Below are positions 1,952-37,052 of a stretch of DNA of 64,000 nt, in pieces (the first letter of the stretch is position 1; each line of letters starts with the position of its first letter). Source of the stretch: Sulfobacillus thermosulfidooxidans (GTDB lineage Bacteria > Bacillota > Sulfobacillia > Sulfobacillales > Sulfobacillaceae); the NCBI RefSeq assembly GCF_001280565.1, contig NZ_LGRO01000001.1:1860001-1924000 (forward strand), read 5' to 3'. The notes beneath the pieces were generated by a model that saw nothing but the letters and a program-made list of their open reading frames with translations, was not told the origin of the DNA and ran no database searches. The position numbers were made by a program, and so were the translations under genes.

Positions 1952-1978
1952 CCTTCATGCCCTCCATTCCTTAAGTGG

Positions 1979-7298: not shown

Positions 7299-7435
7299 CT
7301 CTTTGGTCCCTGCCTTTCATGTCATCATCTAATCAATGAAGCTGAGATCATGCTAACAAACAGCTCTGTTTAAAACATTAGACAATCTGTCATGATTTCT
7401 CCCTCTTTCGTTATGACATTTCTCTATGAATGTGA

Positions 7436-13753: not shown

Positions 13754-14182
13754 ACTCATTCTCCTTTCAGCGATGGTCAAAGAAGGTCAAATAAGATCAA
13801 CGAAGAGAACGAGAAACAGGAAAAAGAGGTTATATGATATTACTAACTTTACTGAACATTATACAATTTGACTAATTATATTATTTGACTAATTATATTA
13901 GGGAAGAAATCTTGTGTAATGGGCCCAAAAAGTTCACCATGGGCAGTAAAGCCACCCCATGCCAAATCGCTTGATGAATCGCCAGAAGATAACAGCAGGT
14001 TATCTTTTGACACGTCACATTACGGCATGCTAGCTTCTTGATATATTATGCGGACAACCGGGTTGGTAGAATTTACTCATTATATATCCTCAGCCGTCGA
14101 AGTGTCATCACCTCGCAATGGGAGATGCTCGATCCCCTCCCTCCCCGGAGCTATCAGTTGCGCTGGTTAGGGCTGGTCAATC
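13754..14182. other. Intergenic region between formamidase and psuK
   Basis: About 430 bp without a supportable gene. The part nearest the formamidase gene (13780-13910) is very A+T rich and holds a perfect 17-bp tandem duplication. On the minus strand TATAAT-like boxes occur here, so this is probably the formamidase promoter region. The right half shows only short antisense frames. Confidence 0.5.
13866..13899. repeat. Perfect tandem duplication of a 17-bp unit
   Basis: The unit ATTTGACTAATTATATT occurs twice head to tail (13866-13882, 13883-13899), about 115 bp upstream of the formamidase start. Each copy contains TTGACT and TATATT. It may be a paired operator or a duplicated promoter element. 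Confidence 0.75.
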
Positions 14183-14203
14183 GCCGGAGTCACAAACTCC
14201 GGC
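14183..14203 (-). other. Hairpin over the psuK stop codon
   Basis: GCCGGAGT (14183-14190) and ACTCCGGC (14196-14203) form a perfect 8-bp stem with a 5-nt loop, and the TGA stop of psuK lies at the loop. No U-tract follows, so it is not a classical terminator. It could protect the 3' end of the mRNA. Confidence 0.5.
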
Positions 14204-15050: not shown

Positions 15051-15939
15051 GAAGTGCTCCAGCAACTTTTCCCGCTAGGGCTGCATTGGCTTTCAATAAT
15101 GCAATATTAGCCCGTTGTAAATGATCTCCGGCCACACTATTCAAATAGTTCAACAAGAAGGGAGTAAGGAGCTTCCCCGAAATTCCCTGGGCGGCGGCAT
15201 GTTCCAAGGCGTCACGCACAAGATTCTCCACCAAATCGGGATCGACTGGCAAAGGTCCAGGCTGCACTAGAAGTAAGGCTTGTGGCAATGCCAAATCTCG
15301 CATAGTGCGGACCATGGAGCCCACTTCGTGGACATCTTCGACAAAGTGGGGCAGCGCAAGGCCCGTAGAGGCCACATAAAATCCGGGGAAATCTCGAGTT
15401 TGGTAGCCAATCACGGGAATTCCCATAGACTCAAGAAATTCCATTGTTTTTGGTAAATCCAATATACTTTTGGCTCCCGAAGATACAATCACGATAGGGC
15501 AAGACGCCATCGCATAAAGATCGGCAGAAATATCCCATGTGTGACTAGCCCCGCGGTGCACACCACCAATGCCCCCCGTGGCAAAGACATCGATGCCCGC
15601 CTTTTGGGCGATATAGGCGGTTGCGGCCACCGTGGTGCCCCCATTTTTATGATGGATGATGGCCGGAGCTAAATCACGAATCGAGCACTTTTCCGCATCC
15701 ACCAAGATTTCTTCCCATTCGGAGGGCTCCAATCCCACAACCACGTCCCCATGAAGAAGACCGATGACCGCGGGAACGGACCCAGACGAGCGCACCGCGT
15801 ACGCCATATCCCGGACCGTTTCAACATTGGCCGGATAGGGCAGGCCATGGGTTAATACCGCGGTTTCCAATGCCACCACTGCTCTATTGTGTGCCAATGC
15901 CTCTTGAACCTCGGGATGAACCCTCATATGTTCCATCAT
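15043..15939 (-). CDS. psuG: Pseudouridine-5'-phosphate glycosidase
   Basis: Splits the C-C glycosidic bond of pseudouridine 5'-phosphate to uracil and ribose 5-phosphate. The protein has 298 residues. Family hallmarks are LETAVLTHGLPYP at the N-terminus, GGTTVAATAYIA, FATGGIGGVHRGA and the Schiff-base lysine region SSGAKSILDLPKTMEFLE. AGGGGTGAGG precedes the start. It lies 9 bp after the last ABC permease gene and overlaps psuK, so import, phosphorylation and cleavage are one operon. The uracil formed can enter the reductive pathway encoded at 569-7298. Confidence 0.95.
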   Translation of the reverse strand: MMEHMRVHPEVQEALAHNRAVVALETAVLTHGLPYPANVETVRDMAYAVRSSGSVPAVIGLLHGDVVVGLEPSEWEEILVDAEKCSIRDLAPAIIHHKNGGTTVAATAYIAQKAGIDVFATGGIGGVHRGASHTWDISADLYAMASCPIVIVSSGAKSILDLPKTMEFLESMGIPVIGYQTRDFPGFYVASTGLALPHFVEDVHEVGSMVRTMRDLALPQALLLVQPGPLPVDPDLVENLVRDALEHAAAQGISGKLLTPFLLNYLNSVAGDHLQRANIALLKANAALAGKVAGALHG

Positions 15940-21356: not shown

Positions 21357-21378
21357 TCCCATGACCTAAGTCATGGGA
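21357..21378 (-). other. Hairpin with the hutU stop codon in its loop
   Basis: TCCCATGAC (21357-21365) and GTCATGGGA (21370-21378) form a perfect 9-bp stem whose 4-nt loop contains the TAG stop of hutU. No U-tract follows on the minus strand. It resembles the stop-codon hairpin of psuK. Confidence 0.5.
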
Positions 21379-23063
21379 ATATTGGTCTCAGGTCCCACAA
21401 ACGGTGCGCGCATGCGGTCTTCATGGGCCTTCATGGTTTGGGCAGCTAATTCATACCCCGCATCGGCGTGTCGGATCACGCCGATGCCCGGATCATTAAA
21501 GAATACGCGCGATAAGCGACCGGCACTATCCTCACTCCCGTCTGCCACCACCACAGCGCCCGCATGCAACGCATAGCCAATCCCGGTGCCTCCTCCATGA
21601 TGAAACGACACCCAATGGGCCCCCGAGGCGGTATTCAATAAGGCGTTAAGAATCGGCCAATCGGCAATCGCATCAGAACCGTCTCGCATAGCCTCTGTTT
21701 CCCGATAGGGCGAGGCCACAGAACCCGTATCATGATGGTCGCGGCCAAAGACGACGGGGGCTGACAGCACGCCTTGCGCCACCCACTCATTCACCTTTGT
21801 CGCGAACGCGTCCCGTTCCCCCAGCCCCATATAGGCGATACGCGCGGGAAGCCCTTGAAAGTGAATATATTTCTGAGCCAGCGTAAACCACCGGGTTAGC
21901 AGCGGATTATCGCCAAACATCTGAAGGGCTAAGGCGTCCAATTGATAAATTTCTTCCGGCTTTCCGGAAAGAACGGCCCAGCGAAACGGGCCCTTGCCCT
22001 GGTTAAACAAATCACGAATATACGCGGGAACATATCCGGGAATATCAAACGCATCGGTTACGCCCTGATCGAACGCTTCTCGTCGTATGTTATTACCATA
22101 ATCAAACGTATGCGCTCCCGCTTTTTGAAGTTGCAGGAGGTTCCGAACATGATGCGCAATCGAACGTCGCGCTCGTTGTAAATAATCTCCAGGATCTTTT
22201 TGGCGCCAAGACACCGCCTCGTGTACGCTGAGTTCATCAGGAATATACCCGATCAGGGGATCATGCGCGGCCGTCTGGTCTGAGAGCACATCGGGAATAA
22301 TCTTTTGCGTAATGAAATACTGTAATAGCTCATTGGCATGACAGTGAACACCAATCGATAAAGACTCGCCGGCCTGTTTTGCCGACAGAGCGCGGTTAAC
22401 AGCGGTTTCGATACTGTCGTACGCCACATCAAGATATCCGGTATCGAGACGTTTCTGAATCCGGTTCTCATCCACTTCCGCGATTAACGCCACGCCATCC
22501 AACATTTTGGCGGCTAAGGGTTGAGCGCCGCCCATTCCGCCCAATCCGGCTGAGACATAAAGACGTCCTTTCAAGGTCCCATCAAAATGTTTACGGGCCA
22601 AAGCGGCTAATGTTTCAAAGGTGCCTTGAATGACGCCTTGACTGCCAATATAAATCCATGAACCCGCCGTCATTTGTCCAAACATGGTGAGCCCTTGTTT
22701 TTCCAATCGGTCAAACTCTTCCAAGGTCGCCCACTTTCCCACCAGGTTGGCATTCGCTATCAAAACGCGCGGGGCCTGGGGTTGGGTCTTGAATATTCCT
22801 ACGGGCTTCCCCGATTGAATCAGTAAGGTTTCATCATTCTCCAAAGTCAATAAACTTTCCACAATCTTGTCATACGCTGGCCATGACCTTGCTGCCCGCC
22901 CGCGTCCTCCATAGACAATGCGCTCTGACGGATTTTCTCCGACGCGCGCATCAAGATTATTCATCAGCATGCGCAATGCCGCTTCCTGACCCCATCCTTT
23001 ACAATGCCGTGTGGGCCCCGTTGGGGCTTGAATCCCCACATGCTGGAAAAAGTCCCTGTCCAT
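21366..23063 (-). CDS. hutU: Urocanate hydratase (urocanase)
   Basis: Adds water to urocanate to give 4-imidazolone-5-propionate, using tightly bound NAD. The 565-residue length is normal. Family stretches are GWGQEAALRMLMNNLD, RIVYGGRGRAARSW, MTAGSWIYIGSQGVIQGT, SAGLGGMGGAQP (NAD binding) and VSFHHGGGTGIGY near the C-terminus. It is the last gene of the minus-strand group that begins with the RpiR-type regulator; HutI, the next enzyme, is encoded at the far end of the divergent plus-strand group. No histidine ammonia-lyase gene is present. Confidence 0.96.
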   Translation of the reverse strand: MDRDFFQHVGIQAPTGPTRHCKGWGQEAALRMLMNNLDARVGENPSERIVYGGRGRAARSWPAYDKIVESLLTLENDETLLIQSGKPVGIFKTQPQAPRVLIANANLVGKWATLEEFDRLEKQGLTMFGQMTAGSWIYIGSQGVIQGTFETLAALARKHFDGTLKGRLYVSAGLGGMGGAQPLAAKMLDGVALIAEVDENRIQKRLDTGYLDVAYDSIETAVNRALSAKQAGESLSIGVHCHANELLQYFITQKIIPDVLSDQTAAHDPLIGYIPDELSVHEAVSWRQKDPGDYLQRARRSIAHHVRNLLQLQKAGAHTFDYGNNIRREAFDQGVTDAFDIPGYVPAYIRDLFNQGKGPFRWAVLSGKPEEIYQLDALALQMFGDNPLLTRWFTLAQKYIHFQGLPARIAYMGLGERDAFATKVNEWVAQGVLSAPVVFGRDHHDTGSVASPYRETEAMRDGSDAIADWPILNALLNTASGAHWVSFHHGGGTGIGYALHAGAVVVADGSEDSAGRLSRVFFNDPGIGVIRHADAGYELAAQTMKAHEDRMRAPFVGPETNIPMT

Positions 23064-23116: not shown

Positions 23117-24442
23117 TTACCCCCATCGCTGGGTGAGATCTTGAATTCTTCGAGTCAAATCCGTAAGATTTTCGCTTGGCAACTGGCCGTCACGTACCAC
23201 AGGTTTACCCTGAATCACGACCTGGCGAATGGCTTCCGGCGTCATCGCATAGACGATATTGGCCAAAAGTGTTTCGGGATTCCACGGCAATAGCGACAGA
23301 TGATGGAGATCGATGCCGACAAAATCGGCCCAGAAGCCTTCGGCAATTCGGCCCGCTGGTACCCCTAGCATCTCAGCCCCGGATTGTGTCCCCATATGCC
23401 AAACCTCACGGTGTGACACGCTGGTCGCATCGAGTGTGCCCACTTTTTGGAGCAGGGCAGCCATCCGCATTTCTTCAAAAATACTGGCCCGGTTATTGCT
23501 GCATCCCCCATCGGTGCCTAGCCCTATCCGGACCCCCGCTTCTCGCAGTCGCGGGAGCGGAGTAATCCCATCAGCTAAAAACATGTTGCTTGAGGGGCAA
23601 TAAGCTAAATGGGATTGAGCCTCACCCAGCACATGAATATCATCGGAATTCACCCACGTCAGATGAATCGCTATCAGTTGATCCGTGATAATCCCCAGAT
23701 CGGCCAAATGCTGCACCGGCGTTTTTCCGGTCCGGGAAAGAGTCTCGTTGACTTCAAACGGTTCCTCAGCAACATGGATATGATAGGGAGTGCCAAGACG
23801 CCGGGCTAAGTCTACTCCGGCTTGGATCATCGGATCCGACGCCCCGTGAACACTGTGGGGAGCAGGATGGATGAAAACAGCGGGATCCGGAGCACACCGT
23901 GCGGCTAATTCTTGTGTTCGATATACCGCGTCATCAGGGGTTTCACGGTACGCCTCCGGCGCCCCCTCCCAGTCATAAAAGGTCCGGGCCATGACCAGGC
24001 GGATACCAACATCCCGCGCGGCTTCAATGACCGCCCAATCATTCTCAAGGCCTTGATTGTGCACATAGAAGAAGTCGACAACCGTCGTAATGCCGTGTAA
24101 GACCATTTCGCTAAACGCCAATTTTGCTCCCCAATAAATAGCCTCCGCATTCAGATGAGGCGTAATCCGATATAACGCTATATCCCGCCACACCAAAAAC
24201 GGCTGATCGACCGCTATTCCACGCAACAAATGTTGAAAGGAGTGGGTATGGGTGTTAATCGTGCCGGGCACTAAGGCCTGATCCGCCCAGTGAATGGATC
24301 GGGCCTGAGGAAAAAGACGCGCCATCTCGTCCCGGGGACCCACCCCGACAATGGTTCCCGCGTCCTCGTCAACCACGACGCCATAATGCGCCATAAACTG
24401 CTCATTCACCCACATCCACGCGGGTTCATAAACGCTCAGCAT
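23117..24442 (-). CDS. Amidohydrolase-superfamily deaminase, candidate formimidoylglutamate deiminase (HutF-like)
   Basis: 441-residue metal-dependent deaminase of the TRZ/ATZ/HutF type. Metal ligands are in NTHTHSFQ (His 65 and 67), IHVAEE, AIHLTW and GLGTDGGCSNN. Context between hutU and an M20 hydrolase suggests formiminoglutamate to formylglutamate plus ammonia. The motifs are also close to SAH, 8-oxoguanine or cytosine deaminase types, so the substrate is not certain. The ATG at 24442 overlaps the stop of the upstream gene and follows AAAGGATG. Confidence 0.72.
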   Translation of the reverse strand: MLSVYEPAWMWVNEQFMAHYGVVVDEDAGTIVGVGPRDEMARLFPQARSIHWADQALVPGTINTHTHSFQHLLRGIAVDQPFLVWRDIALYRITPHLNAEAIYWGAKLAFSEMVLHGITTVVDFFYVHNQGLENDWAVIEAARDVGIRLVMARTFYDWEGAPEAYRETPDDAVYRTQELAARCAPDPAVFIHPAPHSVHGASDPMIQAGVDLARRLGTPYHIHVAEEPFEVNETLSRTGKTPVQHLADLGIITDQLIAIHLTWVNSDDIHVLGEAQSHLAYCPSSNMFLADGITPLPRLREAGVRIGLGTDGGCSNNRASIFEEMRMAALLQKVGTLDATSVSHREVWHMGTQSGAEMLGVPAGRIAEGFWADFVGIDLHHLSLLPWNPETLLANIVYAMTPEAIRQVVIQGKPVVRDGQLPSENLTDLTRRIQDLTQRWG

Positions 24443-25710
24443 TCTTTCACATCCTTTGAGAACATCGTATAAGATGTTCCCGGAGCATTCAGATCCCACC
24501 GTATGATGACCCGGCGCACAACCTCGGCAGCCAGCACGATATCCTCCATTTCGGCGGATTCTTCAGGACAGTGGCTGTAGCCATTACTGCGCACGAAAAG
24601 CATGCCCGTCGGCACCCGTTTGGCCAGATGAGCCGCATCATGCCCCGCCCAACTGACGAGAGCGGGATGCGGCAGTCCCATCTCATCCATCACGGCATGG
24701 AGTAAGGCTTGCACGTCCTGATCCATGAAACTCGGCTCCTGTTCCAAGATCATGTGGCGGCGGATGGATAAGTGCAGGCGCTGGCTTAATGCCTGAAGCT
24801 GTGTCCACAGGCTATCTGTCAGTTCCGCCAAGATGTCGGGATCAGGAGAACGCCATTCCACAATAAATTCGACGTGCGAGGGGATAATGTTGATGGAATT
24901 GGGAAACACGCGGACATAGCCGACCGTGCCCACCGCACGGTCGGCAAATCGCTGGCTCAATTGTTGGAAGATCATCATGGCTTGGGCAAATCCTTGAACC
25001 GCATCACGACGGGATTCATAGGGTGTCGTGCCGGCATGGTTTTGTTCTCCGGTAAGGGTAATCATTTGCCGCGTGATCCCGGTAATGGTGGTCACCACTC
25101 CCAGAGGCCATCCCGCTTCATGAAGCCGGGGACCTTGTTCAATATGGGGTTCCAAAAAACCTTTTAACGGGCCGATTGCAAATGCTGAATCGTGAAGACC
25201 AGGAGCTCCCGCTTGATCCAACGCCTTCCGCACCGAATAACCCGTCTCATCGGTCACATCCAGTACCCGATCCCACGACAGGACACCAGTTAACAAGCGG
25301 CTCCCTAAGGTCGAAAGGCGAAAAGGATTGGGTTCTTCACCGGTTAAGGCCAAAACCGCGAGAGTGTTTCGCGGTCTGTATCCCTCTTCTTGTAATGTTT
25401 GGAGGGCTTCTAAGCCTAAAATGACCCCCAGTGCCCCATCATAACCGCCACCATTTCTCACCGTATCCAAGTGGGATCCCACGGCCATAATGTCTTGCGA
25501 CGCTCCCGGCAAAAATGCCCATAGATTCCCAGCCGGATCGATTTGGGTCACAAATCCGGCCTGTTCCGCTTCCCGCAAAAACCATTGTCGTGCCGCCCGT
25601 TCCGCTGCACTGCCAAAGGGGCGGGTAATGCCTCCCGCATCATCTTGTCCGATCGCGGCAAGGGCATCAAACCGTCTTTGCAATCGAGACAACGCCAAGA
25701 TATCCGGCAT
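24436..25710 (-). CDS. M20-family amidohydrolase (N-carbamoyl-L-amino acid hydrolase / allantoate amidohydrolase-like)
   Basis: 424 residues with the binuclear-metal motifs of this branch: VGSHLDTVRNGGGYDGALG, the catalytic LTGEEPNPF and FLEPHIEQGP, and later QNHAGTTPY and AGHDAAHLA. Relatives remove carbamoyl or similar groups from amino acids. In this cluster it could take N-formyl-, N-formimino- or N-carbamoyl-glutamate to glutamate, replacing HutG. AAGGAG lies before the ATG. It follows the regulator gene by 7 bp and overlaps the deaminase gene, so all are co-transcribed. Confidence 0.85.
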   Translation of the reverse strand: MPDILALSRLQRRFDALAAIGQDDAGGITRPFGSAAERAARQWFLREAEQAGFVTQIDPAGNLWAFLPGASQDIMAVGSHLDTVRNGGGYDGALGVILGLEALQTLQEEGYRPRNTLAVLALTGEEPNPFRLSTLGSRLLTGVLSWDRVLDVTDETGYSVRKALDQAGAPGLHDSAFAIGPLKGFLEPHIEQGPRLHEAGWPLGVVTTITGITRQMITLTGEQNHAGTTPYESRRDAVQGFAQAMMIFQQLSQRFADRAVGTVGYVRVFPNSINIIPSHVEFIVEWRSPDPDILAELTDSLWTQLQALSQRLHLSIRRHMILEQEPSFMDQDVQALLHAVMDEMGLPHPALVSWAGHDAAHLAKRVPTGMLFVRSNGYSHCPEESAEMEDIVLAAEVVRRVIIRWDLNAPGTSYTMFSKDVKEC

Positions 25711-25717: not shown

Positions 25718-26617
25718 TCACTCCTTATTTTTTGTGCTCGTCCGCGACCAGTAGACCTGCAAGCGTTGGTCCCGTTCTTCTAACTGTTCCAAACGCAAAC
25801 GGACGCCAGGAAGTTCTTGGGCCACTTGACGGACAAGGTAATTAATCACAAACATGGGGGCCACATACGAATCAAATAGCGACGCCGTGGCCACCGGAAC
25901 GACCAGAACCGGATCGGCAAAGGTCATGACGGGCGACATCCAGCGATCGGTTAACGCCGCCACCCTCACCCCATCGTGATGTGCCGCTTCAAGCCATTCC
26001 ATCAACACTCGGGAATAGCGAGGAAACACCCACCCCACAATGACCGTGTCCTCGGAATCCCAGCCGGCACAGTTATCCCATAAAGGCGTGCCGGGTGTCG
26101 CCACTTCCACCCCATTGCGAATCTTGCCCAAACAATATGCAGCATAGGGAATTAACGTACTCGAAATGCGCGCCCCCGCCAAAATGACGCGGGATTTGGT
26201 CGCCACCAAATTCACCAACCGGTTCATGGGTTCACTGTCTAAAATTTCGGGGAGCGATTCCAAATTCGCCACCTCTTGCGCCAATAATGGATCCGCATCG
26301 TCAGGAATACTGGGACGGAGGTAGACGGTGCGTTCGGGAGCGCGCCATTCTTCCCGGACAAATTCTTGGAGGGCATGCACAAACTCACTGTATCCCCCAA
26401 AGCCCATGCTGTGGCAAAACCGCGTGATGGAGGCTTGGCTCACACCGACCGCTTTGGCTAAGTCACCTGAACTCATAAAGGACGCTTCCCGTAAATGCAG
26501 CGCTAAGTAATCGCCAATTTGCTGATGCGTGATCGACTCGCTTGATGCCAGTCGAATCCGGTCCATAAATCCTTCAATACTCTGTAGTGGCTTCATCGAA
26601 TGCGTATCCTCATTCAT
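25718..26617 (-). CDS. RpiR/MurR-family transcriptional regulator (HTH plus SIS domain)
   Basis: 299 residues. The N-terminal helix-turn-helix (SSGDLAKAVGVSQASITRFCHSMGFGGYSEF, split here as residues about 50-80) is the RpiR type; residues about 125-270 form a SIS-like domain (RVILAGARISS). It heads the M20-deaminase-hutU operon and diverges from the permease/HisD-like operon, so it probably controls both from the 26618-27119 region in response to a pathway intermediate. The start is uncertain; an ATG at 26596 is an alternative. Confidence 0.87.
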   Translation of the reverse strand: MNEDTHSMKPLQSIEGFMDRIRLASSESITHQQIGDYLALHLREASFMSSGDLAKAVGVSQASITRFCHSMGFGGYSEFVHALQEFVREEWRAPERTVYLRPSIPDDADPLLAQEVANLESLPEILDSEPMNRLVNLVATKSRVILAGARISSTLIPYAAYCLGKIRNGVEVATPGTPLWDNCAGWDSEDTVIVGWVFPRYSRVLMEWLEAAHHDGVRVAALTDRWMSPVMTFADPVLVVPVATASLFDSYVAPMFVINYLVRQVAQELPGVRLRLEQLEERDQRLQVYWSRTSTKNKE

Positions 26618-27119
26618 AAACGAATAGTGTGTGAATCAGTTGTTCCACAAAATTTTAGCACAAAGAGAATATTTGAATAAGCTCATTCCGCCAATTTTTT
26701 GTATAAAAACCAATTTACCCAGAATCCTGCTAATTTGTCGTCTAATTGCGTCAGCCTTACAGTATATATTTGACATCTATCTTACATGATTCATTGTGCT
26801 GAACTCACAAATCATGAATAAAAATAATGAACATGTTCTAAACCCATTGACATCATCTCCTGTTTGTTTTTACTGTAAACGTGTAACACTCTATTCTCTT
26901 TGAAATATATTTAAATGACTTCATTCATCCTGTGTTGTCTTAACCTATCTGTTTCGTGATTCATGGTAGTCGTTGCCGGCCCCTGTGCTTATGCCCCAAA
27001 TTTTCCAGTTCGTAAGATGGTCCCATTCAAGACGCCCTGACTTAGGCTGCCACCTACGCTTAGAGGAACATTTTTCAGTCGTTAAGGTAGTGATTGAAAA
27101 TATGATAGGAGGAAACAAG
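26618..27119. promoter_or_regulatory. Divergent control region of the imidazole cluster
   Basis: About 500 bp, A+T rich, between two divergent operons. Two perfect palindromes stand out: GAACATGTTC (26829-26838) and TTTACTGTAAA (26869-26879). TTGACA boxes occur at 26847-26852 and around 26770. AGGAGG lies before the permease ATG. The palindromes are candidate operators for the RpiR-type protein; promoter assignment is not firm. Confidence 0.5.
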
Positions 27120-28526
27120 ATGAGCGAGTTATCTGCCGTCGAAAAGGCCATCGAGCGTCACAGTTATGACGTCATTCCTCTCACGGAACGACACGGGACG
27201 CCCAAATGGTTATTTTTCATGTGGTATGGGATTAACGCACAAATTTTTGTTGTAGCTACAGGGGCACTAGGTGTACTGATTGGCTTGAATTTTTGGGGTA
27301 CGGTGTTGGCCATTGTTGTAGGGAATATTGTCGGTAGCATTTTTATGGCACTCCATTCCGCTCAAGGGCCCAAATTGGGCTTACCGCAGATGATTCAAAG
27401 CCGCGCTCAATTCGGTTTTTATGGATCACTGTGGCCACTATTTATTGTGTGGGCCATGTATGTCATTTTTGCAGCCACTAATATTGTGATGGCCGGACAA
27501 GCTTTTCAAGCTGTCTACCATGGTTCTGTCAATTCCTGGGCGGCCATCTTGACCATCCCCATGATTCTCATCGCGATTTTTGGCTATGACTGGATCCATT
27601 ATGGATTTCGCTATGCAACCTGGCTTTATTCCATCGTCTTTATTGTGCTCACGGTCATGTTGCTTGTTCACGGTTTACCCGCTCATGATCTCGCCCATGG
27701 GAAATTTACTTGGGGCAACTTTTTCTTAGCGTTATCTATTTATGCAACCTGGCAAATTTCTTATGCGCCCTATGTATCGGATTACTCCCGGTACTTGAGC
27801 CCGAATCTTGCCACTCATACGTTCTGGGCAACATTTTGGGGTACCAACATCGGGTCTATCTGGCTTATGATTTTAGGAGCCGCCTTAGCCGCTCTCAATC
27901 CCGCCGCTCAGACTCTTTCTGCTATTCAGGGATTAGGTGGTCACAGTTGGGGAACGATTATCGCCCTATTACTCGGGATAGGTCAACTCATCCCCGGAGC
28001 CGTCAATATTTATGGCGGAGCCATTGTGACGCTTTCCGCAGGTAGTAATATTCGTCCGTTTGAATCCACTCGCATATTGCGAAGTGTCGTGGCTCTCGTG
28101 ATAGGAATATTATCGGCACTTATGGCAATTGCTGGTTCCGGGCATTTCATGACCAATGTTGAAAATTTTCTACTCTTCCTGATGTACTTCTTGATCCCAT
28201 GGACCGCCATCAATCTCACCGACTTCTATTGGATCCACCATGGTAACTATAAAATCTCCGATTTATTCACGTCTAAGGGCGTCTATGGACGGTGGGGATG
28301 GCCCGCACTGATTGTGTACACCGTGACCTTTCTCGTCGAAGTTCCATTTATGAACACGACCGTCTACCAGGGGCCTATTTCCAAAGCTTTAGGCGGAGCC
28401 GACATTTCATGGATTGTCGGCCTCATTGTTGCGGTGCCCCTGTACTACTGGGCAGACCGTAAATGGGGTAAAAAAGATGCGATTAGTTCCGTGTTAACAG
28501 ACAGAGAACCCCAAATCGTAGAATAG
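27120..28526 (+). CDS. NCS1-family permease (second copy, imidazole cluster)
   Basis: 468-residue membrane protein with about 12 hydrophobic segments, of the cytosine/purine/hydantoin symporter family (WYGINAQIFVVATGALGV near the start, then MIQSRAQFGFYGS, then YAPYVSDYSRYL). AGGAGG lies just before the ATG at 27120; the open frame upstream has no ribosome site. It is the first gene of the plus-strand operon and diverges from the regulator. It is clearly different in sequence from the permease at 8292. The context suggests uptake of an imidazole compound. Confidence 0.86.
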   Translation: MSELSAVEKAIERHSYDVIPLTERHGTPKWLFFMWYGINAQIFVVATGALGVLIGLNFWGTVLAIVVGNIVGSIFMALHSAQGPKLGLPQMIQSRAQFGFYGSLWPLFIVWAMYVIFAATNIVMAGQAFQAVYHGSVNSWAAILTIPMILIAIFGYDWIHYGFRYATWLYSIVFIVLTVMLLVHGLPAHDLAHGKFTWGNFFLALSIYATWQISYAPYVSDYSRYLSPNLATHTFWATFWGTNIGSIWLMILGAALAALNPAAQTLSAIQGLGGHSWGTIIALLLGIGQLIPGAVNIYGGAIVTLSAGSNIRPFESTRILRSVVALVIGILSALMAIAGSGHFMTNVENFLLFLMYFLIPWTAINLTDFYWIHHGNYKISDLFTSKGVYGRWGWPALIVYTVTFLVEVPFMNTTVYQGPISKALGGADISWIVGLIVAVPLYYWADRKWGKKDAISSVLTDREPQIVE

Positions 28527-28605: not shown

Positions 28606-30585
28606 GTGATAACCATCAGATATTGGGATAGACTTACAGATTCAGAACGCCAGAATCTTCTCATACGTGGAGAAATGCATTATCCCGATATTCAAGCCAC
28701 CGTGGAAAACATTCTCCAAGAGGTTAAAGTGTATGGTGATGATGCGTTATGGCGTTTAGAAAAAGAACTTGACCAGGCGGATCTCCGGGCATGTGGCCTG
28801 AAAGTCACCGAAGCTGAATTCATCAACGCGGAACAGCAATTACCCGAGCATCTCAAAGCGGCAATAGACCATAGTATTGCCAATATCAAACGGTTTCATC
28901 TCAAGCAGGTTCCCCCATTGTCATGGTCAACGGAAATCCTTCCTGGAGTCCACGTGGGAGAAATCACGAAGCCCATTGCCTCAATTGGACTCTATGTTCC
29001 CCGCGGAAAGGGCTCTTTTCCCTCGGTTATGGCAATGCTCGGCGTGCCAGCGGTCCTTGCCGGAGTTCCTCAAATTATTGTGGCTTCCCCTCCGGGTCCT
29101 CAAGGGACAATTGACCCCGCTGTACTCTATGTGGCAAGCCAATTGGGCATTTCCCACGTCTTTCGTATAGGCGGCGCACAAGCTATCGCAGCTATGGCGT
29201 ATGGGACAATGTCCGTGCCTAAGGTAGCTAAAATTTTGGGACCCGGCAGTGCCTTCGTTGCCGTCGCCAAACAACAACTGGCTGGTTTTATAGATATTGG
29301 TTTGCAGTCAGGACCCAGCGAGGCTCTCATCATAGCCGATGACCATGCCAATGCCAAATGGGTCGCCCTGGACTGGATGAATGAAGCTGAACATGGACCC
29401 GACTCCACCGTATTTCTTGTCACGCCATCTGCCACGTTAGCCCAACAAGTAGCCCGTTTTGTTGAGGAATATTATGAACGATTGCCCGAGCCCCGCCGTC
29501 AATTTGTCGAGCAGGTTGCACAAAAGGGAGGAATTCTCATCACCCCAAATCTCTCCATAGCGTTAGACTTTGTTAACGATTTCGCCGCCGAACACCTGGT
29601 GCTTCATGTCGCCGACCCTGATGGCGTTGTGCCCCACATTCATCATGCCGGAGAAATTCTTATTGGACCCTTTACACCCATTGCGGCAGGCAACTTTATG
29701 GTAGGACCTAATGCCGTCTTGCCCACAGCAGGATTTGCTCGCAGTATGTCTGCTCTTAGCATTCGTGATTTCTTACATGTCACATCGGTTCTAAGGCTTT
29801 CGAAAAATGCCCTTATCGAGATGGCTTCCGATATTGTCACGATAGCCGAATATGAAGGATTTACGGCTCACGCTCTCTCAGTCACCGGTCGAGACTTAGC
29901 GGTGAGCGGAGCAACACATACAAGTCATCCCGAACAAGAACTAGGAATATTTTGGCACGAAATCACTAAGGACCGGATCCATGTCAAGAGACGAACACGG
30001 GAATCAATTATTGAACTGCAACTATCCCGGGGACCTCGTGATGAGGCGTTAAAAGAACATGTGCGAACCGGACTGCAATTCCTTAATCATATGCTTGAAA
30101 CGATTGCCTGGCGAGGACAGTTTAATCTGGCGGTAACATATCACGCTCAAGAGGCCAAGGAATATCACTTGATGCATGTCATTGCCGAGGATGTCGGTCT
30201 TACGTTAGGTCTTGCCTTCCACCGTATGGCTCAAGAACATTTATTTTATGGCATTGAAGGCTCAGGGTTTGCCGTGGGCGTCATCGACGAAGCCGAGTCT
30301 TTTGTGGCTATCAGTCTTGAAGGACGCCCCTTCTTGCAATGCGAGTACGATCCTTCCGTTCGTCAGCTCGAACACGTAGAAGATATGCTGACCACGGATT
30401 TGGAGAATGTCTTGTCCGGCTTCGCTCAAGGGGCTCTGGCTACACTTCATGTCATGGTCCGCCGGGGACACGATCCCCACCACCTGTGGGAATCGGTTTT
30501 CCGTGCGCTCGGTGAAGCCATGAATGCCTGCTTACGGCCCAATGCGTTCAGGCAAGGAACGACACCGGGAGTCAAGGGAATTTAA
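28606..30585 (+). CDS. HisD-like dehydrogenase fused to a HisB (IGPD)-like domain
   Basis: 659 residues. Residues 1-435 are a histidinol-dehydrogenase-like NAD enzyme (VPRGKGSFPSVMAMLGVPA, FAAEHLVLH with Glu 329/His 330). Residues about 458-659 are an imidazoleglycerol-phosphate-dehydratase-like domain (RRTRES, FLNHMLE, DEAES, GHDPHHLWES). Metal ligands are altered: the HisD zinc Gln and Asp are Glu 260 and Asn 363 (His 263 and His 422 kept); in IGPD the HH pair is His 524-Val 525. A GTG start at 28606 follows AAGAAGGGA, with a small hairpin between. The catabolic context argues against histidine synthesis. Inferred role: oxidising and dehydrating an imidazole C3 alcohol or diol. The substrate is unknown. 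Confidence 0.85.
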   Translation: MITIRYWDRLTDSERQNLLIRGEMHYPDIQATVENILQEVKVYGDDALWRLEKELDQADLRACGLKVTEAEFINAEQQLPEHLKAAIDHSIANIKRFHLKQVPPLSWSTEILPGVHVGEITKPIASIGLYVPRGKGSFPSVMAMLGVPAVLAGVPQIIVASPPGPQGTIDPAVLYVASQLGISHVFRIGGAQAIAAMAYGTMSVPKVAKILGPGSAFVAVAKQQLAGFIDIGLQSGPSEALIIADDHANAKWVALDWMNEAEHGPDSTVFLVTPSATLAQQVARFVEEYYERLPEPRRQFVEQVAQKGGILITPNLSIALDFVNDFAAEHLVLHVADPDGVVPHIHHAGEILIGPFTPIAAGNFMVGPNAVLPTAGFARSMSALSIRDFLHVTSVLRLSKNALIEMASDIVTIAEYEGFTAHALSVTGRDLAVSGATHTSHPEQELGIFWHEITKDRIHVKRRTRESIIELQLSRGPRDEALKEHVRTGLQFLNHMLETIAWRGQFNLAVTYHAQEAKEYHLMHVIAEDVGLTLGLAFHRMAQEHLFYGIEGSGFAVGVIDEAESFVAISLEGRPFLQCEYDPSVRQLEHVEDMLTTDLENVLSGFAQGALATLHVMVRRGHDPHHLWESVFRALGEAMNACLRPNAFRQGTTPGVKGI

Positions 30586-30737
30586 CGAGAGCCCACTGGT
30601 CATTGGTTATCCAAAGCTGCTTCCACCTTATGGTATAAATTCAGCGCCATGAAATCATTGACGAGTTCTTGATGTCACAAACGATGATAGAAACTAAAGG
30701 ACTCCCATCAAGTCTAGCATAGGAGAGAGAATACTCC

Positions 30738-31514
30738 ATGAATGACGCGATAGCCGAGATTATGTCTTTAAAAAATCACATAGCTCTCGTGACAGGAGGA
30801 AGTCAAGGCATTGGAGAGAAAACAGCTAAAATATTAGCAGAATCCGGAGCCGAGGTCGTCATTTGTTCGCGTTCAGAAGATCGTTTGAAAGCAGCGCAAA
30901 AACGTCTAGCAGCTCAAGGTCAGCACGTCCACACAGTTTTGTGTGATATCAAGAATCCCGGAAGTATTGCCCTTATGGTACAAGAGATCGAAGAACATAT
31001 CGGTCCCATCAGTATTTTGGTGAACAACGCGGGCGTTGATATCCCTATGGCTGCTCTCGACGTGACAGAAGAAACGTGGACGACCATCATGGACACCAAC
31101 GTCAAGGGAGTTTTCTTCTGTGCCCAGCAGGTAGCCCGCTTCATGATTCCCCGCAATCAGGGCGTCATTATCAATTTGGCATCTGAATTGAGCTTTGTAG
31201 GGATGGTTCCCTATGCGGTCTATGCCATTAGCAAAGGCGCTGTTGTCCAATTAACCAAAACATTGGCACTAGAATGGGCTCCTCATCACATCCGTGTCAA
31301 TGCCATAGCCCCAACTTTAGTCGAGACGCCCATGCTTGATGCGCTTTTTAGTCATCCCGAGCACGCAATGAGGCAGTGGATTAACATGATCCCGTTAGGA
31401 CGTTTAGGCACACCCACTGACGTGGCGCACGCCATCGCATTTTTAGCGTCAGACGCGGCATCTTTTATTACCGGGACCATACTTCCGGTTGATGGCGGGC
31501 GATTGTGCCACTAA
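30738..31514 (+). CDS. Short-chain dehydrogenase/reductase (canonical)
   Basis: 258-residue SDR with the full set of motifs: TGGSQGIGEKT for the cofactor, NNAG, Ser in INLASELS, and YAISK for the catalytic Tyr/Lys. The C-terminal LPVDGG is typical of the FabG-like group. AGGAGAG lies before the ATG at 30738. It lies between the HisD-like fusion and the aconitase X genes. Inferred role: interconversion of a keto and hydroxy group on the imidazole side chain, for example imidazolepyruvate and imidazolelactate. Confidence 0.87.
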   Translation: MNDAIAEIMSLKNHIALVTGGSQGIGEKTAKILAESGAEVVICSRSEDRLKAAQKRLAAQGQHVHTVLCDIKNPGSIALMVQEIEEHIGPISILVNNAGVDIPMAALDVTEETWTTIMDTNVKGVFFCAQQVARFMIPRNQGVIINLASELSFVGMVPYAVYAISKGAVVQLTKTLALEWAPHHIRVNAIAPTLVETPMLDALFSHPEHAMRQWINMIPLGRLGTPTDVAHAIAFLASDAASFITGTILPVDGGRLCH

Positions 31515-31573
31515 TCTTCGCCCAACCACAGCAGCAATGACGACTGTAACGTCCACAGGAAGGAGACCTGACA

Positions 31574-32776
31574 TTGGTTCTCACCGAAGAAGAAATCGCC
31601 ATGCTTGAGGGAAAGTACGGGGAAGGAACCGCTTTAGCCATGCGGATACAAGTCGGCATTGGAGAAGCGTTTGACGCCCAACGCCTGGTACCCATTTCCC
31701 GAGCACATGTCGCATTAAGTAACCAAGAAGCCGATTTGTGGTTTGTCGAAAAGCTTCTCCATCTCGGAGCCGCATGCCGCGTTTCTCCAACCGTCAATCC
31801 CGGATTTGATCTGTCCTATTTTTCCACTGTGGCCACGGTGAAATCCCAGGATTTAGAGCAAATGGCGCGAACAGCTCAAGCTTATCGGGATATCGGAGCC
31901 ATTTTAAATTACAGCTGTACGCCTTATTTGTTTGACAATATTCCCCGTCTTCATGAAATCATCGCGTTTTCGGAAAGCAGTGCCACCCCCTACGTAAATG
32001 CAGTCTATGGAGCCAGGACTAACCGTGAATCAGCTCAAAGTGCCTTGTGTGCTGCCATTACAGGACGTGTTCCGGAATACGGATTATTATTAGACGAAGC
32101 CCGATATGGAACGGTCTTGGTACAAATCGAAGCGCGGTTGCAGTCTGATTTCGACTACCAACTCCTTGGCTATGCTATTCCTAAAAAGATTCATGGTGAA
32201 GTTCCCGTCTTTATGGGCATTCCCAAAGACGTTACACCCGAATCCCTGATGAATCTTGGGGCCGAACTTAATACCGCTGGAGCTGTACCCATGTATCACA
32301 TTTTGGGCGTGACTCCCGAAGCCCAAAGTCTGGAACAAGCTACCGGATACCGAAAGAATCTGAATACGGTCGTCATTACCAATCAGGATTTAGAACGGGT
32401 CCATGACCAGATTTCCAAGAAACCAGGACCTATTGAGTTTGTGATGCTCGGTTGTCCTCATCTCACGCTCAGGCAAATTCAAAATATTGCCCAGTTAATT
32501 CATGGACACAAACTCCGTACCGAATTATGGATCAACACATCCGCCCATACACGTCTTTTGGCCGAACGTCTCGGTATTGCTCAAATTATTGAGGATGCGG
32601 GTGGCCACATTCTCCAAGACTCCTGCGTCGACCAGCCCATTTGGGCTCATCTCGCCGGGAAAATCGGCGCCACCGACTCGCCCAAATGCGCTTATTATAC
32701 GGCCAGACGGTCGATGGATTTTGTTATTCGCAGTATCGAAGAGTGTGTGGCTGCGGCAATAAAGGGGGAAATTTGA
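31574..32776 (+). CDS. Aconitase X large (catalytic) subunit
   Basis: 400-residue protein of the AcnX/DUF521 family, Fe-S hydro-lyases known to dehydrate cis-3-hydroxyproline or mevalonate 5-phosphate. Three well-placed cysteines could hold the cluster: Cys 115 (NYSCTPYL), Cys 294 (LGCPHLT) and Cys 351 (DSCVDQP). The start is a TTG with AAGGAG 7 bp upstream. Its stop overlaps the start of the small subunit (TGATG). In this cluster the attractive role is dehydration of imidazolelactate to urocanate, the HutU substrate; this is inference. Confidence 0.88.
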   Translation: MVLTEEEIAMLEGKYGEGTALAMRIQVGIGEAFDAQRLVPISRAHVALSNQEADLWFVEKLLHLGAACRVSPTVNPGFDLSYFSTVATVKSQDLEQMARTAQAYRDIGAILNYSCTPYLFDNIPRLHEIIAFSESSATPYVNAVYGARTNRESAQSALCAAITGRVPEYGLLLDEARYGTVLVQIEARLQSDFDYQLLGYAIPKKIHGEVPVFMGIPKDVTPESLMNLGAELNTAGAVPMYHILGVTPEAQSLEQATGYRKNLNTVVITNQDLERVHDQISKKPGPIEFVMLGCPHLTLRQIQNIAQLIHGHKLRTELWINTSAHTRLLAERLGIAQIIEDAGGHILQDSCVDQPIWAHLAGKIGATDSPKCAYYTARRSMDFVIRSIEECVAAAIKGEI

Positions 32777-33204
32777 TGGTAAACGCAGTGAACAATTCAA
32801 AAGAGTTTTCTTGCCACAAAATTTCTGGTGGGAGAGCCGAGGCTCCTTGCATTATTTCTCCCGATGATATCTGTTTTTACCTCTGCGATCCCAAAACAGG
32901 CATCGTCTTAGAAGAAGGTCATGCCTTGAAAGGCCGCAGTCTCGCTGACAAAATCGTCATTTTCCCCAGTGGCAAGGGTAGCTCAGTGGTTCAAACCGAC
33001 GGACTCTTCCAGTTAGCGATGAATGGGAATGCTCCCAAAGCTATTATCGTGCAATACCCCGACACAGTACTTGTGGCCAGTTGTATTATTCTAGATATTC
33101 CGATGGTCGACCGCGTCGATCCCGCCTTTTACCACTGGATCGAGTCAGGCGTAACACTCCACCTCGATGCCGATAGGGAAAGAATCCGCGTGATGGCGCC
33201 TTGA
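32776..33204 (+). CDS. Aconitase X small (swivel) subunit
   Basis: 142-residue DUF126-type swivelling domain (KISGGRAEAPCIIS, IVIFPSGKGSSVVQTDGLFQL, PMVDRVD). The PSGKGSS loop is the family signature, and the serine of this loop acts in catalysis in known AcnX enzymes. The ATG overlaps the large-subunit stop and AAAGGGGG lies upstream, so the two parts are made in equal amounts. Two-gene AcnX is the usual bacterial and archaeal form. Confidence 0.88.
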   Translation: MVNAVNNSKEFSCHKISGGRAEAPCIISPDDICFYLCDPKTGIVLEEGHALKGRSLADKIVIFPSGKGSSVVQTDGLFQLAMNGNAPKAIIVQYPDTVLVASCIILDIPMVDRVDPAFYHWIESGVTLHLDADRERIRVMAP

Positions 33205-35768
33205 ATTCTGTGACATCATCTATTTCGGCAGAACAAAAAAGCAAGATTATGCAAGCGCTCTTGCCCATCGTCGGCCAAGATGCTCTCATCGCTCAGTCAG
33301 ATGCCCTAACTTCCTACCGGTATGATGCGACGGGACAGGCGGGACATCCGGACTTGGTAGTGTTGCCCTCCTCAACTAGCGCCTTAAGGCAGGTTCTCAA
33401 AATCCTCGAATCTTTTTCATCCCTTCCTATCATCGTTCGCGGTTCGGGAACGAACTTGTGCGGTGGCACGGTCCCCAAAACCGGTGGTGTTGTCATTGCC
33501 CTGACCCGCCTTCAGAGTTGGCTCTATCACGATCTTAGAAACCGCTATATTGTCGTGGAATCCGGTCTCTTAACCGCATCAGTGAACCACCGCCTAAATC
33601 CTTTAGGCTATCATTATGGACCAGATCCCGGCAGTTATCATATCTCCACAATTGGCGGCAACGTAGCCGAAAATGCCGGAGGCATTCATGGCGTCTCCTA
33701 TGGCGTGACCACCCAACATGTGTTGCAAATGCATATCTATATCGGCAATAAGGGCCTCTTGACGCCCACTATTCACGACTTCCGAACCACGCTTGATATC
33801 ACTGGATTACTGGTTGGCTCCGAAGGCACATTAGCTATAGTCGATACAGTTATTTTAAATATTTTGCCGCAATGGCCTCATATAGCGACGATGCTTATCA
33901 TATTTTCAACCCTACCTGAGGCCGTGGATACAGCTTTGGGTGTTTTAGCTGCTGCTGTTTCTGTAAGCGCTTTAGAACTTATGGACGAGGCTTCCCTTAA
34001 GGTGATTCAACCTCTCATGAAAGACATGGATTTTGGGAAGGCTCAGGCCGCATTGCTCATCGACATCCACTCGTCGCCGGCACGCTTATTTCAAGAGTCG
34101 ATGTACCTCAAAGAAATTACTAAGAAGTATGGGGCTCTAAAGGTTCTCCTCGCTGAAACAGCGACCGAATCACGTTCATGGTGGGAAGGACGGCGGGCGC
34201 AATATGGTGCGGCGGCGCGTCTGGCTCCTCGACTATGGGTACAAGATGTAGCCGTACCTCTGTCCCAACTCAAATCATTGTTCCGACGTATTGAGGAGAT
34301 TCAATCATCTTATGCCATGCCCATCATTACCGTCGCTCATGCAGGCGATGGGAACCTTCATCCGGACATTCCCTACGATCCGACATCCGCCACAGAAGTC
34401 AGTCGTGCTCACGCGATGGTCGACGCTATTCTCCAAGAAGCCGTCGCTTTAGGCGGAACCATATCCGGTGAACATGGCATAGGCCATGACAAACTTCCCT
34501 ATTTAGGGCTTATGTATGGAGATGAGGAGCAACATGTTTTTGCCGCCATTAAACAGTGTTTTGATCCAGACTGGCGTTTAAATCCTGGTATTGCCGTGTA
34601 CAGAACGGCCCTGAAAGACCTTCAATATCCACTAATCAGTTCTCCCACTTCTTCGATATCGCAAAAGTCCTCTAGTTTGTGGCAGCCCGGTAATCTTAAC
34701 GAACTTCAAGAGATGATATATACAGCATCTCGTTCACATCTCACGCTGACAGTTCAAGGTGCCGGACACTGGCAAAATATCTTGCAGTGTGAAGACACCA
34801 GGATGATTCAACCCATATCTTTGTGCGCTTTTAGTTCCATCCATGAATTGGACCCGGAGAGTTTATCCATCACGGTGGGTGCTGGAATACCCAATGCTGA
34901 ATTAACCGACTTTCTCGCATCTTATCATCTTCAGCATGCGCTAGTCAGCGGCCATCCTCAAGGTACTACCGGGGGTCTAGTCAGCCGCAATAATAGGTCA
35001 TGGCACCATAGCTATCAATTTGGATGGCGCGACACCCTTTTGGCGATATCGGTTATCGACGGACAAGGGCGTCATCTCAAATTCGGCAGCAAAGCTATCA
35101 AGGACGTAGCCGGATACGACGTCAAAAAATTGTTTATCGGTTCTTGGGGAGCGTTAGGAATCATCACCTCATTAACATTCAAACTTGAGACGATACCAAA
35201 AACCTTGTTATGGGGCACCTTTCGGGCAAAAACCCTTCAACAATTGCTAAACATCGCAATCGATTTGGGTTCTCATGCGTACCGGCCTGAAGCTATATTC
35301 ATAAAACGCTGGTCCTTTACGGATCCCGAACTGGTGATTCGAATCTTAGGCCCTCACTGTCCTGAAATGAGGAGGCTGGCAGAACAATTGGCCCTGTCCT
35401 ATCAAGCCGATCTGACGTGGCAACAATCGGAGTTCCAGGACGACCTTGATATACAGCGAGAGAACAATATTCGTAATGCATGGCAACAACATGGCTATTG
35501 CTATGAAGGTGGGGTCTGGCCCACCGATCTGCTCAACCTCATTCCTGTAATAGGCGACCGTTTGTTCACTTTGTTTCCTGTCTCAGGAGCTTATGAAATT
35601 TATGGCCAACTTCCCTTTTCTCGGGTGCTGCCAGGTCTTCACCGGGTGTGGCATCCCAACAATCATTGGAGTCTAACCTATCCCACCTGGCACCCTTATG
35701 TCCAGGGTCTCAAAGAAATCTTTGATCCCAAACAAATCTTTGCTGTCCCGTGGACTGTAAGCCTATAG
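33201..35768 (+). CDS. Fused GlcD-GlcE-type FAD-linked 2-hydroxyacid dehydrogenase
   Basis: 855 residues with two flavoprotein modules. Residues 1-470 are GlcD-like (GSGTNLCGG and ENAGGIHGVSYG for FAD; HAGDGNLHP and GEHGIGHDK for the active site). Residues about 480-855 are GlcE-like, with a shorter FAD domain ending in KDVAGYDVKKLFIGSWGALG. Normally these are separate subunits of glycolate oxidase with an Fe-S GlcF, which is absent here. The TTG start overlaps the AcnX stop. Likely role: oxidising a D-2-hydroxyacid such as imidazolelactate to the keto acid, or disposing of electrons; the substrate is not known. Confidence 0.83.
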   Translation: MNSVTSSISAEQKSKIMQALLPIVGQDALIAQSDALTSYRYDATGQAGHPDLVVLPSSTSALRQVLKILESFSSLPIIVRGSGTNLCGGTVPKTGGVVIALTRLQSWLYHDLRNRYIVVESGLLTASVNHRLNPLGYHYGPDPGSYHISTIGGNVAENAGGIHGVSYGVTTQHVLQMHIYIGNKGLLTPTIHDFRTTLDITGLLVGSEGTLAIVDTVILNILPQWPHIATMLIIFSTLPEAVDTALGVLAAAVSVSALELMDEASLKVIQPLMKDMDFGKAQAALLIDIHSSPARLFQESMYLKEITKKYGALKVLLAETATESRSWWEGRRAQYGAAARLAPRLWVQDVAVPLSQLKSLFRRIEEIQSSYAMPIITVAHAGDGNLHPDIPYDPTSATEVSRAHAMVDAILQEAVALGGTISGEHGIGHDKLPYLGLMYGDEEQHVFAAIKQCFDPDWRLNPGIAVYRTALKDLQYPLISSPTSSISQKSSSLWQPGNLNELQEMIYTASRSHLTLTVQGAGHWQNILQCEDTRMIQPISLCAFSSIHELDPESLSITVGAGIPNAELTDFLASYHLQHALVSGHPQGTTGGLVSRNNRSWHHSYQFGWRDTLLAISVIDGQGRHLKFGSKAIKDVAGYDVKKLFIGSWGALGIITSLTFKLETIPKTLLWGTFRAKTLQQLLNIAIDLGSHAYRPEAIFIKRWSFTDPELVIRILGPHCPEMRRLAEQLALSYQADLTWQQSEFQDDLDIQRENNIRNAWQQHGYCYEGGVWPTDLLNLIPVIGDRLFTLFPVSGAYEIYGQLPFSRVLPGLHRVWHPNNHWSLTYPTWHPYVQGLKEIFDPKQIFAVPWTVSL

Positions 35769-35813: not shown

Positions 35814-37052
35814 ATGATCATGTATTATCTCATTATTCACGGAACTGTTTATCCGGTGACCACTCCCCGTGCGCCCCGGCGCGGAGGAGAACTAGGCTCT
35901 CAGTCTATTGTGGCTGATGGGGCCATCGTGATTAAAGACGGCCTTATACAGGCGCTCGGGCCCACCGAGGATATTCTCCAGGCTTATCGGTCCCCAGACC
36001 AGATTTTTGATGCCCAAGGCCGTATTGTCATCCCCGGTTTTGTAGACTGTCACACCCATTTACCCTTTGCGGGTTGGCGGGCCGATGAATACCGTAGTCG
36101 TCTCTTAGGCCAATCCTATCAAAATCTCGGACGTGGTGAAGGAGGCATTGCCCGGTCTAGTCGCCAATTAAATATCCAGAGCGATGAGCAGGTACTCACC
36201 TTTACGGAATCGTTGACACGGGAGATGTTATCGACCGGTACGACTGCATTTGAAATGAAGAGTGGATATGGACTCAGCGTCCAAGGGGAACTTCGCCAGC
36301 TCGCTCTTATTCAGCGTTTAAAGTCCCGCCTCGATCAGCGTATCACAGCCACCGGCTTGTTCCTTCACGCGCTCCCTCAAGAATACACCGCAGACAACTG
36401 GGTCGATGTCGTCATTGATGAGCTTCTTCCTGCCGCTCATGAAAGACAACTGGTTGACGCTGTCGACGTGTTTATCGAGTCGACAGCTTTTACGCCTGAA
36501 CAGGCTCAGAGATTTTTACACGCCGCGCAACGTCTCAATTTGATTCTTCGGGTGCATAGTGACCAATTTTCTCACATGGGAGGAACCGCGTTGGCTCTCG
36601 CGCTTGGTGCCCGGGGCATTGATCATTTGGATCATCTGACGTCAGAAGATGTTGCGGCATTTGGTGATTCGCGGTCAGTTGCCGTGCTCTTACCTGCTGC
36701 TACGTATAGCATGAATCATCAGCCCTTTCCTCCAGCACGGGACTTAATCGAACACAACGCAGCCATTGCTATCGCCTCTGATTTTAATCCTGGGACAGCG
36801 CCGATTTCTCACATGCCCCTCATTATATCGTTAGCAGTCCATCTTTTTGGTCTCACACCGGAAGAAGCCTTAAGCGCAACCACTATAAATCCGGCCTATG
36901 TGTTAGGGATAGAACAAGAAGTCGGTTCAATAGAAGTGGGAAAACGTGCCGATCTTCTCATTTTAGACACTGATCAACTAGAAAGCATTCCATACAGAGC
37001 CGGACATAATCCAATTTATCAGGGTTTTGTAAAAGGAAAACAAATTCGGTAA
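35814..37052 (+). CDS. hutI: Imidazolonepropionase
   Basis: Hydrolyses 4-imidazolone-5-propionate (from HutU) to N-formimino-L-glutamate. 412 residues. Metal and substrate motifs are GFVDCHTHLPFAGWRADE, EMKSGYGLS, LRVHSDQFSHMGG, and ASDFNPGTAP near the C-terminus. AGGAGC lies just before the ATG; a second ATG two codons later is also usable. It is the last gene of the plus-strand operon. HutU and HutI on opposite arms of the divergent cluster tie both operons to one pathway. Confidence 0.95.
   Translation: MIMYYLIIHGTVYPVTTPRAPRRGGELGSQSIVADGAIVIKDGLIQALGPTEDILQAYRSPDQIFDAQGRIVIPGFVDCHTHLPFAGWRADEYRSRLLGQSYQNLGRGEGGIARSSRQLNIQSDEQVLTFTESLTREMLSTGTTAFEMKSGYGLSVQGELRQLALIQRLKSRLDQRITATGLFLHALPQEYTADNWVDVVIDELLPAAHERQLVDAVDVFIESTAFTPEQAQRFLHAAQRLNLILRVHSDQFSHMGGTALALALGARGIDHLDHLTSEDVAAFGDSRSVAVLLPAATYSMNHQPFPPARDLIEHNAAIAIASDFNPGTAPISHMPLIISLAVHLFGLTPEEALSATTINPAYVLGIEQEVGSIEVGKRADLLILDTDQLESIPYRAGHNPIYQGFVKGKQIR

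Follow-up and report, generated by a model that had tools for sequence, protein, structure and literature searches.

The window analysed here is a stretch of 64,000 nucleotides from Sulfobacillus thermosulfidooxidans (assembly GCF_001280565.1, contig NZ_LGRO01000001.1, positions 1,860,001 to 1,924,000), and our interest centred on two overlapping genes for a HutF-like amidohydrolase of the TRZ/ATZ type and an M20-family amidase, which lie beside the urocanate hydratase gene hutU. On the minus strand the genes follow each other in the order RpiR, M20, HutF-like and HutU, spaced by a gap of 7 nucleotides, an overlap of 7 nucleotides and a gap of 53 nucleotides, respectively. The features are listed below; scores are written throughout as bits/curated cut-off of the model.

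25718..26617, minus strand: RpiR/MurR-type regulator (HTH_6 and SIS domains), first gene of the unit
24436..25710, minus strand: open frame for an M20 hydantoinase/carbamoylase-family amidase, putative N-formylglutamate deformylase (TIGR01879, 339/204)
24436..24442: ATGCTGA (DNA read from 24442 to 24436), the 7-nucleotide overlap of the deaminase ATG with the M20 TGA
23117..24442, minus strand: TRZ/ATZ amidohydrolase, putative formiminoglutamate iminohydrolase, HutF-like but not HutF by the curated models
21366..23063, minus strand: hutU, urocanate hydratase (TIGR01228, 851.6/375)
35814..37052, plus strand: hutI, imidazolonepropionase (TIGR01224, 379/298)
26973..28526, plus strand: NCS1-family permease, divergent from the RpiR gene (PF02133, 182.9/23.5)

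A preliminary description of this DNA had reported the TRZ/ATZ deaminase and M20 genes as overlapping. Both frames are open and the overlap is real, but it measures 7 nucleotides and not 64, the latter being the value that a GTG start of the deaminase at 24499 would give. The tblastn-matched ranges of relatives start at the methionine encoded at 24442 in nine of 12 rows and one to seven residues later in the other three. The ATG at 24442 is thus the likely start, although it is not proved by these ranges because they are local matches.

Three enzymes of histidine degradation were clear in the genome, which is 99.98% complete by the tool's figure: HutU (852/375, TIGR01228), HutI (379/298) and HutH (673/539). 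HutH is the single PF00221 match, at C1:1987145, 63 kb past the window, and no other hut gene was seen among the open frames in the 20 kb around it. HutG of the FGase fold (PF05013) had no match in the whole genome; the same search matched in one of 14 control genomes. Nor was PF05013 present in any of the 61 genomes of our set, which comprises this genome and 60 relatives (47 with HutU, 14 without), and the absence is therefore wider than this species. Formimidoylglutamase of the arginase fold (TIGR01227) likewise had no match above the cut-off genome-wide. Two arginase-family proteins, with 115 and 116 bits against a cut-off of 229, were considered for this role and rejected; by score they are an agmatinase and a RocF arginase. 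The absence of the classical HutG or HutE fold, as postulated in the preliminary description, is borne out by these searches, and no hutG or hutE gene under the same control, the finding named there as contrary evidence, exists elsewhere in the genome.

We consider it likely, judging from sequence and gene context, that the overlapping pair completes histidine degradation via N-formylglutamate, with the HutF-like enzyme acting before the M20 enzyme. HutH, HutU and HutI would produce N-formimino-L-glutamate. The HutF-like enzyme would hydrolyse the imine, yielding N-formyl-L-glutamate and ammonia, and the M20 enzyme would then take off the formyl group to release L-glutamate and formate. The pair would thereby replace both the FGase-fold HutG and the arginase-fold formiminoglutamase. 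A non-orthologous replacement, already suggested in the preliminary description, is well supported because of the gene context in three Bacillota lineages together with the absence, by score, of HutG and of formiminoglutamase from the whole genome. If true, the pair would supply the last step missing from genomes with hutH, hutU and hutI but neither hutG nor formiminoglutamase.

Among the 60 relatives, 15 carry an orthologue of the M20 protein (47-78% identity), the next best proteins being at most 38% identical. The orthologue occurs in 16 of the 47 genomes with HutU and in none of the 14 without; HutU accompanies it in all 15 relatives, the HutU of G017 being of a different type and on a contig other than that of the M20 gene. 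The order RpiR-M20-HutF-like-HutU lies above chance, since it is kept in 12 of these 15 relatives (in one of the 12, L057, the M20 gene is in two overlapping pieces). The gene for RpiR, which may regulate the unit, adjoins the M20 gene in 14 of the 15 loci, hutI is present on nine, and an ammonia-lyase more than 40% identical to HutH on three (L051, L053, L056). HutF-like proteins form two groups. Group 1 (681-815 bits) is found in 14 of the 61 genomes, each with HutU. Group 2 (378-510 bits) occurs in 16 of 61 and in nine of these lies directly beside another M20 gene (loci L151-L159, in G009, G018, G012, G033, G029, G032, G027, G031 and G020, in this order). No hut matches were seen near group 2, and in two scanned loci (L151, L155) the neighbours of this second pair are HD-domain and Nramp proteins. 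It is carried by G029, which is without a group 1 protein, and by G032, which is without both hut-type genes.

Beyond the Sulfobacillus relatives, a scan of genome contigs, from which 80 of 294 loci were kept, yielded a single locus with a neighbour more than 40% identical to the HutF-like protein. In this Clostridia metagenome-assembled genome (MAG; L082), the order is RpiR-M20-HutF-like, and the contig also encodes HutU (450/375), HutI (461/298) and HutD at a distance of about 9-11 kb. The best evidence for the replacement comes from a plasmid of Niallia taxi, on which HutP (214/155), HutH (718/539), HutU (996/375), HutI (508/298), the M20 enzyme and the HutF-like protein are encoded in one run. 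The hut order of Bacillus subtilis, which we take to be hutP-hutH-hutU-hutI-hutG-hutM, agrees with that of Niallia from HutP to HutI. Unlike in B. subtilis, the M20 and HutF-like genes follow in Niallia at the hutG place, where the arginase-fold formiminoglutamase is presumably encoded in B. subtilis.

M20 genes directly before a deaminase gene were also found in hut clusters of actinobacteria. The Nonomuraea locus (L169) holds HutU (901/375), an RpiR-family gene, M20, HutF and HutI (389/298), and in Arthrobacter (L170) M20 and HutF are adjacent and the end of HutU lies at the edge of the stretch. L095, a MAG, has M20-HutF with a deaminase at 472/413 for TIGR02022; HutU and HutI had no match in its stretch. 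In Sumerlaeota (L093) an M20 gene lies beside a deaminase of 26% identity only. The actinobacterial clusters differ from the locus in the window in that their deaminase groups with true HutF and their M20 proteins lie elsewhere in the M20 tree. The Nonomuraea M20 protein (L169:4820-5995) is matched by the equivalog NF006770, 'allantoate amidohydrolase', at 593/372; this name may be wrong for some of the M20 proteins that bear it, which could be N-formylglutamate deformylases.

The M20 protein of the window meets TIGR01879, the model for hydantoinase/carbamoylase M20 amidases; its metal residues H80, D91, E126, H189 and H380 are invariant and the carboxylate-type Arg is retained. The FGase domain (PF05013) is not present in it, and it scores below the cut-off for the allantoate deiminase AllC (TIGR03176, 243.4/597.75). 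Its AlphaFold2 model (mean predicted local distance difference test score, pLDDT, 86) fits structures of L-N-carbamoylase and allantoate amidohydrolase, structural alignment and Foldseek lists being used for the fold only. Best PDB match by sequence is 3n5f, a protein from Geobacillus stearothermophilus. As a precedent for the proposed deformylation, the L-carbamoylase of this organism is reported to be more efficient in recognising N-formyl amino acids than their N-carbamoyl counterparts (PMC7431475). The hut-type M20 protein shares with 3n5f and with ErtE, an N-carbamyl-L-glutamate amidohydrolase, the fold, the metal residues and the carboxylate-type Arg. The ligand residues Glu131, Gln196, His385 and Arg291 given for an M20 structure in another report (PMC10952681) would correspond to E125/E126, Q192, H380 and R287 of the window protein in a mapping by family position.

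The motif EEPN(P/A/S)F is found in all 17 hut-type M20 rows (15 from the family, Clostridia and Niallia). 3n5f has EEGARF instead, the actinobacterial M20 rows have EEG(G/A/S)RF, and a further M20 protein from G022 has EEPSIY. R138 and R214 were considered as a mark for the glutamate side chain and dropped, as ten non-hut rows have both arginines too. In a tree of 53 M20 rows, built with 25 'other' loci out of the 80 kept and without L126, the 15 hut-type rows of the family grouped at 100/98, with the Clostridia row at 89/89, and a wider clade with Niallia and eight non-hut Bacilli proteins at 99/98. These eight form a sister group inside the wider clade and have EE(P/S/A)N(D/E)F; HutF, HutU, HutI and HutH had no match at their loci. 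A ninth protein with this motif, from Bacillus badius (L145), is encoded near aspA and an amidase gene. The three actinobacterial hut-cluster M20 proteins form a clade of their own (100/100), apart from the hut-type M20s of the Sulfobacillus family. Because of this separate clade, M20 enzymes probably entered the hut step at least twice.

The M20 family includes carbamoylases, and the preliminary description had also raised a branch through N-carbamoylglutamate. The M20 enzyme would then hydrolyse N-carbamoyl-L-glutamate formed by way of a hydantoin-propionate intermediate, as happens when ergothioneine is broken down, and the deaminase would have its role elsewhere. The ErtE model (NF058540) does score on all three M20 proteins tested, from the window (334.5), Niallia (421) and Clostridia (326), but each stays under its cut-off of 520. 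A plasmid of Deinococcus sp. KNUC1210 (L147) encodes an amidohydrolase annotated in two pieces, an ErtE-type M20 protein (563/520), a urocanase-like protein that comes closest to thiourocanate hydratase (767/930, under the cut-off), a DUF917 protein and an ammonia-lyase, and looks like an ergothioneine-type cluster. The M20 protein of G022 groups with this ErtE-type protein, whereas the hut-type M20 clade lies apart from it. Moreover, the genome encodes an ordinary HutI, which yields formiminoglutamate, and HutU fails two thiourocanate-type models (652/930, 671/880). A dihydropyrimidinase encoded in the window (628/393) fails both models for ErtD, the hydantoin-5-propionate amidohydrolase (267/650, 216/600), and adjoins PreA (627/335). 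The N-carbamoylglutamate branch is therefore disfavoured and we regard it as unlikely.

For the deaminase, the correspondence with PaHutF was taken from an alignment, and the residue numbers and ligand roles of PaHutF (R82, Y121, R209, metal ligands) are those we assume. The residues that mark membership in HutF are present, namely the metal ligands, the R82-type Arg (R86) and the Y121-type Tyr-x-His (Y126/H128), the conserved residues being H65, H67, H223, D311, R86, Y126 and H128. R86 occurs in 15/15 rows of group 1, 11/11 of group 2 and 5/5 classical HutF proteins, and in none of seven other TRZ/ATZ proteins. Y126 is found in all 26 HutF-like rows, in 5/5 classical HutF and in 2/7 others; H128 in 15/15 of group 1, 5/5 classical HutF and 1/7 others, with Asn in 11/11 of group 2. 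R318 is an arginine in 26/26 HutF-like rows, in 0/5 classical HutF and in 0/7 other TRZ/ATZ proteins. From this pattern, R86 and R318 may together hold the two carboxylates of formiminoglutamate. In a tree of 38 rows that included five classical HutF proteins (one, L171, outside hut context) and seven other proteins, HutF-like groups 1 and 2 came together (95/94), and classical HutF sat on a branch of length 2.16 that was flagged for long-branch trouble. As this tree is unrooted, it does not show a separate origin of the HutF-like and classical HutF proteins. It is conceivable, though rather doubtful, that both end steps were re-invented: a TRZ/ATZ formiminoglutamate deiminase would have arisen separately from classical HutF, with R86 retained and the second carboxylate Arg shifted from the R209 position to R318, and M20 amidases would have been recruited as N-formylglutamate deformylases at least two times, in Bacillota and Actinomycetota.

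The closest known counterpart of the proposed route is Pseudomonas HutF with HutG, a formiminoglutamate iminohydrolase followed by an N-formylglutamate amidohydrolase, that is, two hydrolyses releasing ammonia and then formate. The deaminases have the same fold and superfamily and the R82- and Y121-type residues are kept here; the second enzyme differs, being of the M20 and not the FGase fold. A number of observations weigh against the N-formylglutamate route. The deaminase falls below every cut-off of the six HutF models listed (TIGR02022, NF006680-NF006684; best 257.1/362 for NF006681, and 214.2/413.05 for TIGR02022), whereas a classical HutF reached 636 (NF006681) and 472 (TIGR02022). It scores highest with a generic TRZ/ATZ hydrolase model, likewise below the cut-off (275/540), and the label 'HutF-like' of the preliminary description thus holds only loosely. 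The position of PaHutF R209 is His in 26/26 HutF-like rows and Arg in 5/5 classical HutF, and the predicted model (mean pLDDT 92) is nearer adenosine/SAH-type deaminases (Z 52) than HutF 3mdu (Z 47). Several genomes depart from the pattern: G017 (L052) has the M20 gene without hut matches nearby, G032 (L058) has RpiR and HutU with neither M20 nor HutF-like gene between, and G022 keeps HutF-like and HutU with the ErtE-grouping M20 protein (99/98) instead. A Streptomyces plasmid (L168) has HutH-HutU-HutI-HutF and no M20 match in the stretch seen. Of two reviewed sources, one summarises three routes from formiminoglutamate (PMC12288474) and one the two known HutG types (PMC5343134), and neither has an M20 enzyme in the parts available. 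A literature search, with most subscription journals outside its reach, found no M20 N-formylglutamate deformylase and no assay of the pair. A role 'N-formylglutamate deformylase, alternative form' reportedly exists in the SEED, and an N-formylglutamate route in Streptomyces is said to have been studied biochemically; if so, an alternative enzyme is not a new idea.

On the same side stand G029 (L054), with M20-HutU and no HutF-like gene between, and G024 (L056), with HutF-like fragments only. With M20 beside HutU and the HutF-like gene gone or broken, they would fit an M20 enzyme that is itself a formiminoglutamase, converting formiminoglutamate to glutamate and formamide; the deaminase would have another task, and an FmdA-type amidase encoded within the window (FmdA_AmdA, 12452-13780) could clear the formamide. 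Against this speak the adjacency of M20 and deaminase genes in 12 of the 15 relatives, Niallia and the Clostridia MAG, the HutF-type residues retained in the deaminase, and seven other genes between FmdA and the pair, and we find such a role highly improbable.

Finally, the genome's FtcD (TIGR02024, 353/221), unnamed in the preliminary description, could consume formiminoglutamate, which also counts against the N-formylglutamate route. Formimino transfer to tetrahydrofolate would give glutamate, and the pair would handle another compound of the cluster, one with a possible link to the HisD-IGPD, AcnX and GlcDE genes; the Clostridia MAG, too, has AcnX, SDR and HisD next to the pair. FtcD lies at most 1.4 kb from HutU in six of the 31 genomes that have HutU but no M20 orthologue (G042, G045, G049, G050, G052, G058). 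In the genome under study, however, it lies about 1.8 Mb from the locus and not beside its hut genes, and across the 16 genomes that carry the hut-type M20, FtcD and HutU are on different contigs or no less than 200 kb apart, several of those contigs being short. Of the 61 genomes, 56 have FtcD, among them 11 of the 14 without HutU, and the presence of FtcD therefore says little about histidine breakdown. In Niallia the pair sits in the HutP-led hut run, with no AcnX or HisD match in the 29-kb stretch. There is accordingly only a small chance that FtcD does the work.

The NCS1 permease is a possible uptake gene of the cluster; NCS1 matches were present at eight of the 15 relatives' loci, one at 27% identity only. 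The interval between it and hutI (28606-35768, plus strand) encodes a HisD-IGPD fusion, an SDR protein, the large and small subunits of AcnX and a GlcD-GlcE fusion (loci L043, L045, L057 and L082/L149 are listed alongside). The Clostridia MAG pair is flanked, besides AcnX, SDR and HisD, by Lar_N (weak, 27/23) and thiamine pyrophosphate (TPP)-enzyme genes. These neighbours (AcnX, HisD, SDR) are possibly a route that brings another imidazole compound into the hut pathway.

Elsewhere in the window, genes for reductive pyrimidine breakdown lie at 569-8161 (minus strand) and include, besides those for the dihydropyrimidinase and PreA, genes for a nitrilase-family amidase and an aminotransferase. 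The FmdA-type gene (PF03069, minus strand) is part of a stretch at 12452-15939 (minus strand), whose two further genes would encode, judging from their translations, a PfkB-type kinase and also a pseudouridine-5'-phosphate glycosidase, with no NCBIfam matches at E 1e-40. Two CRISPR arrays of the DR2 repeat family lie on opposite strands (63-359 and 62514-63405), and Cas1, Cas3 and Cas10/Cmr2 proteins were confirmed between 44980 and 57888.

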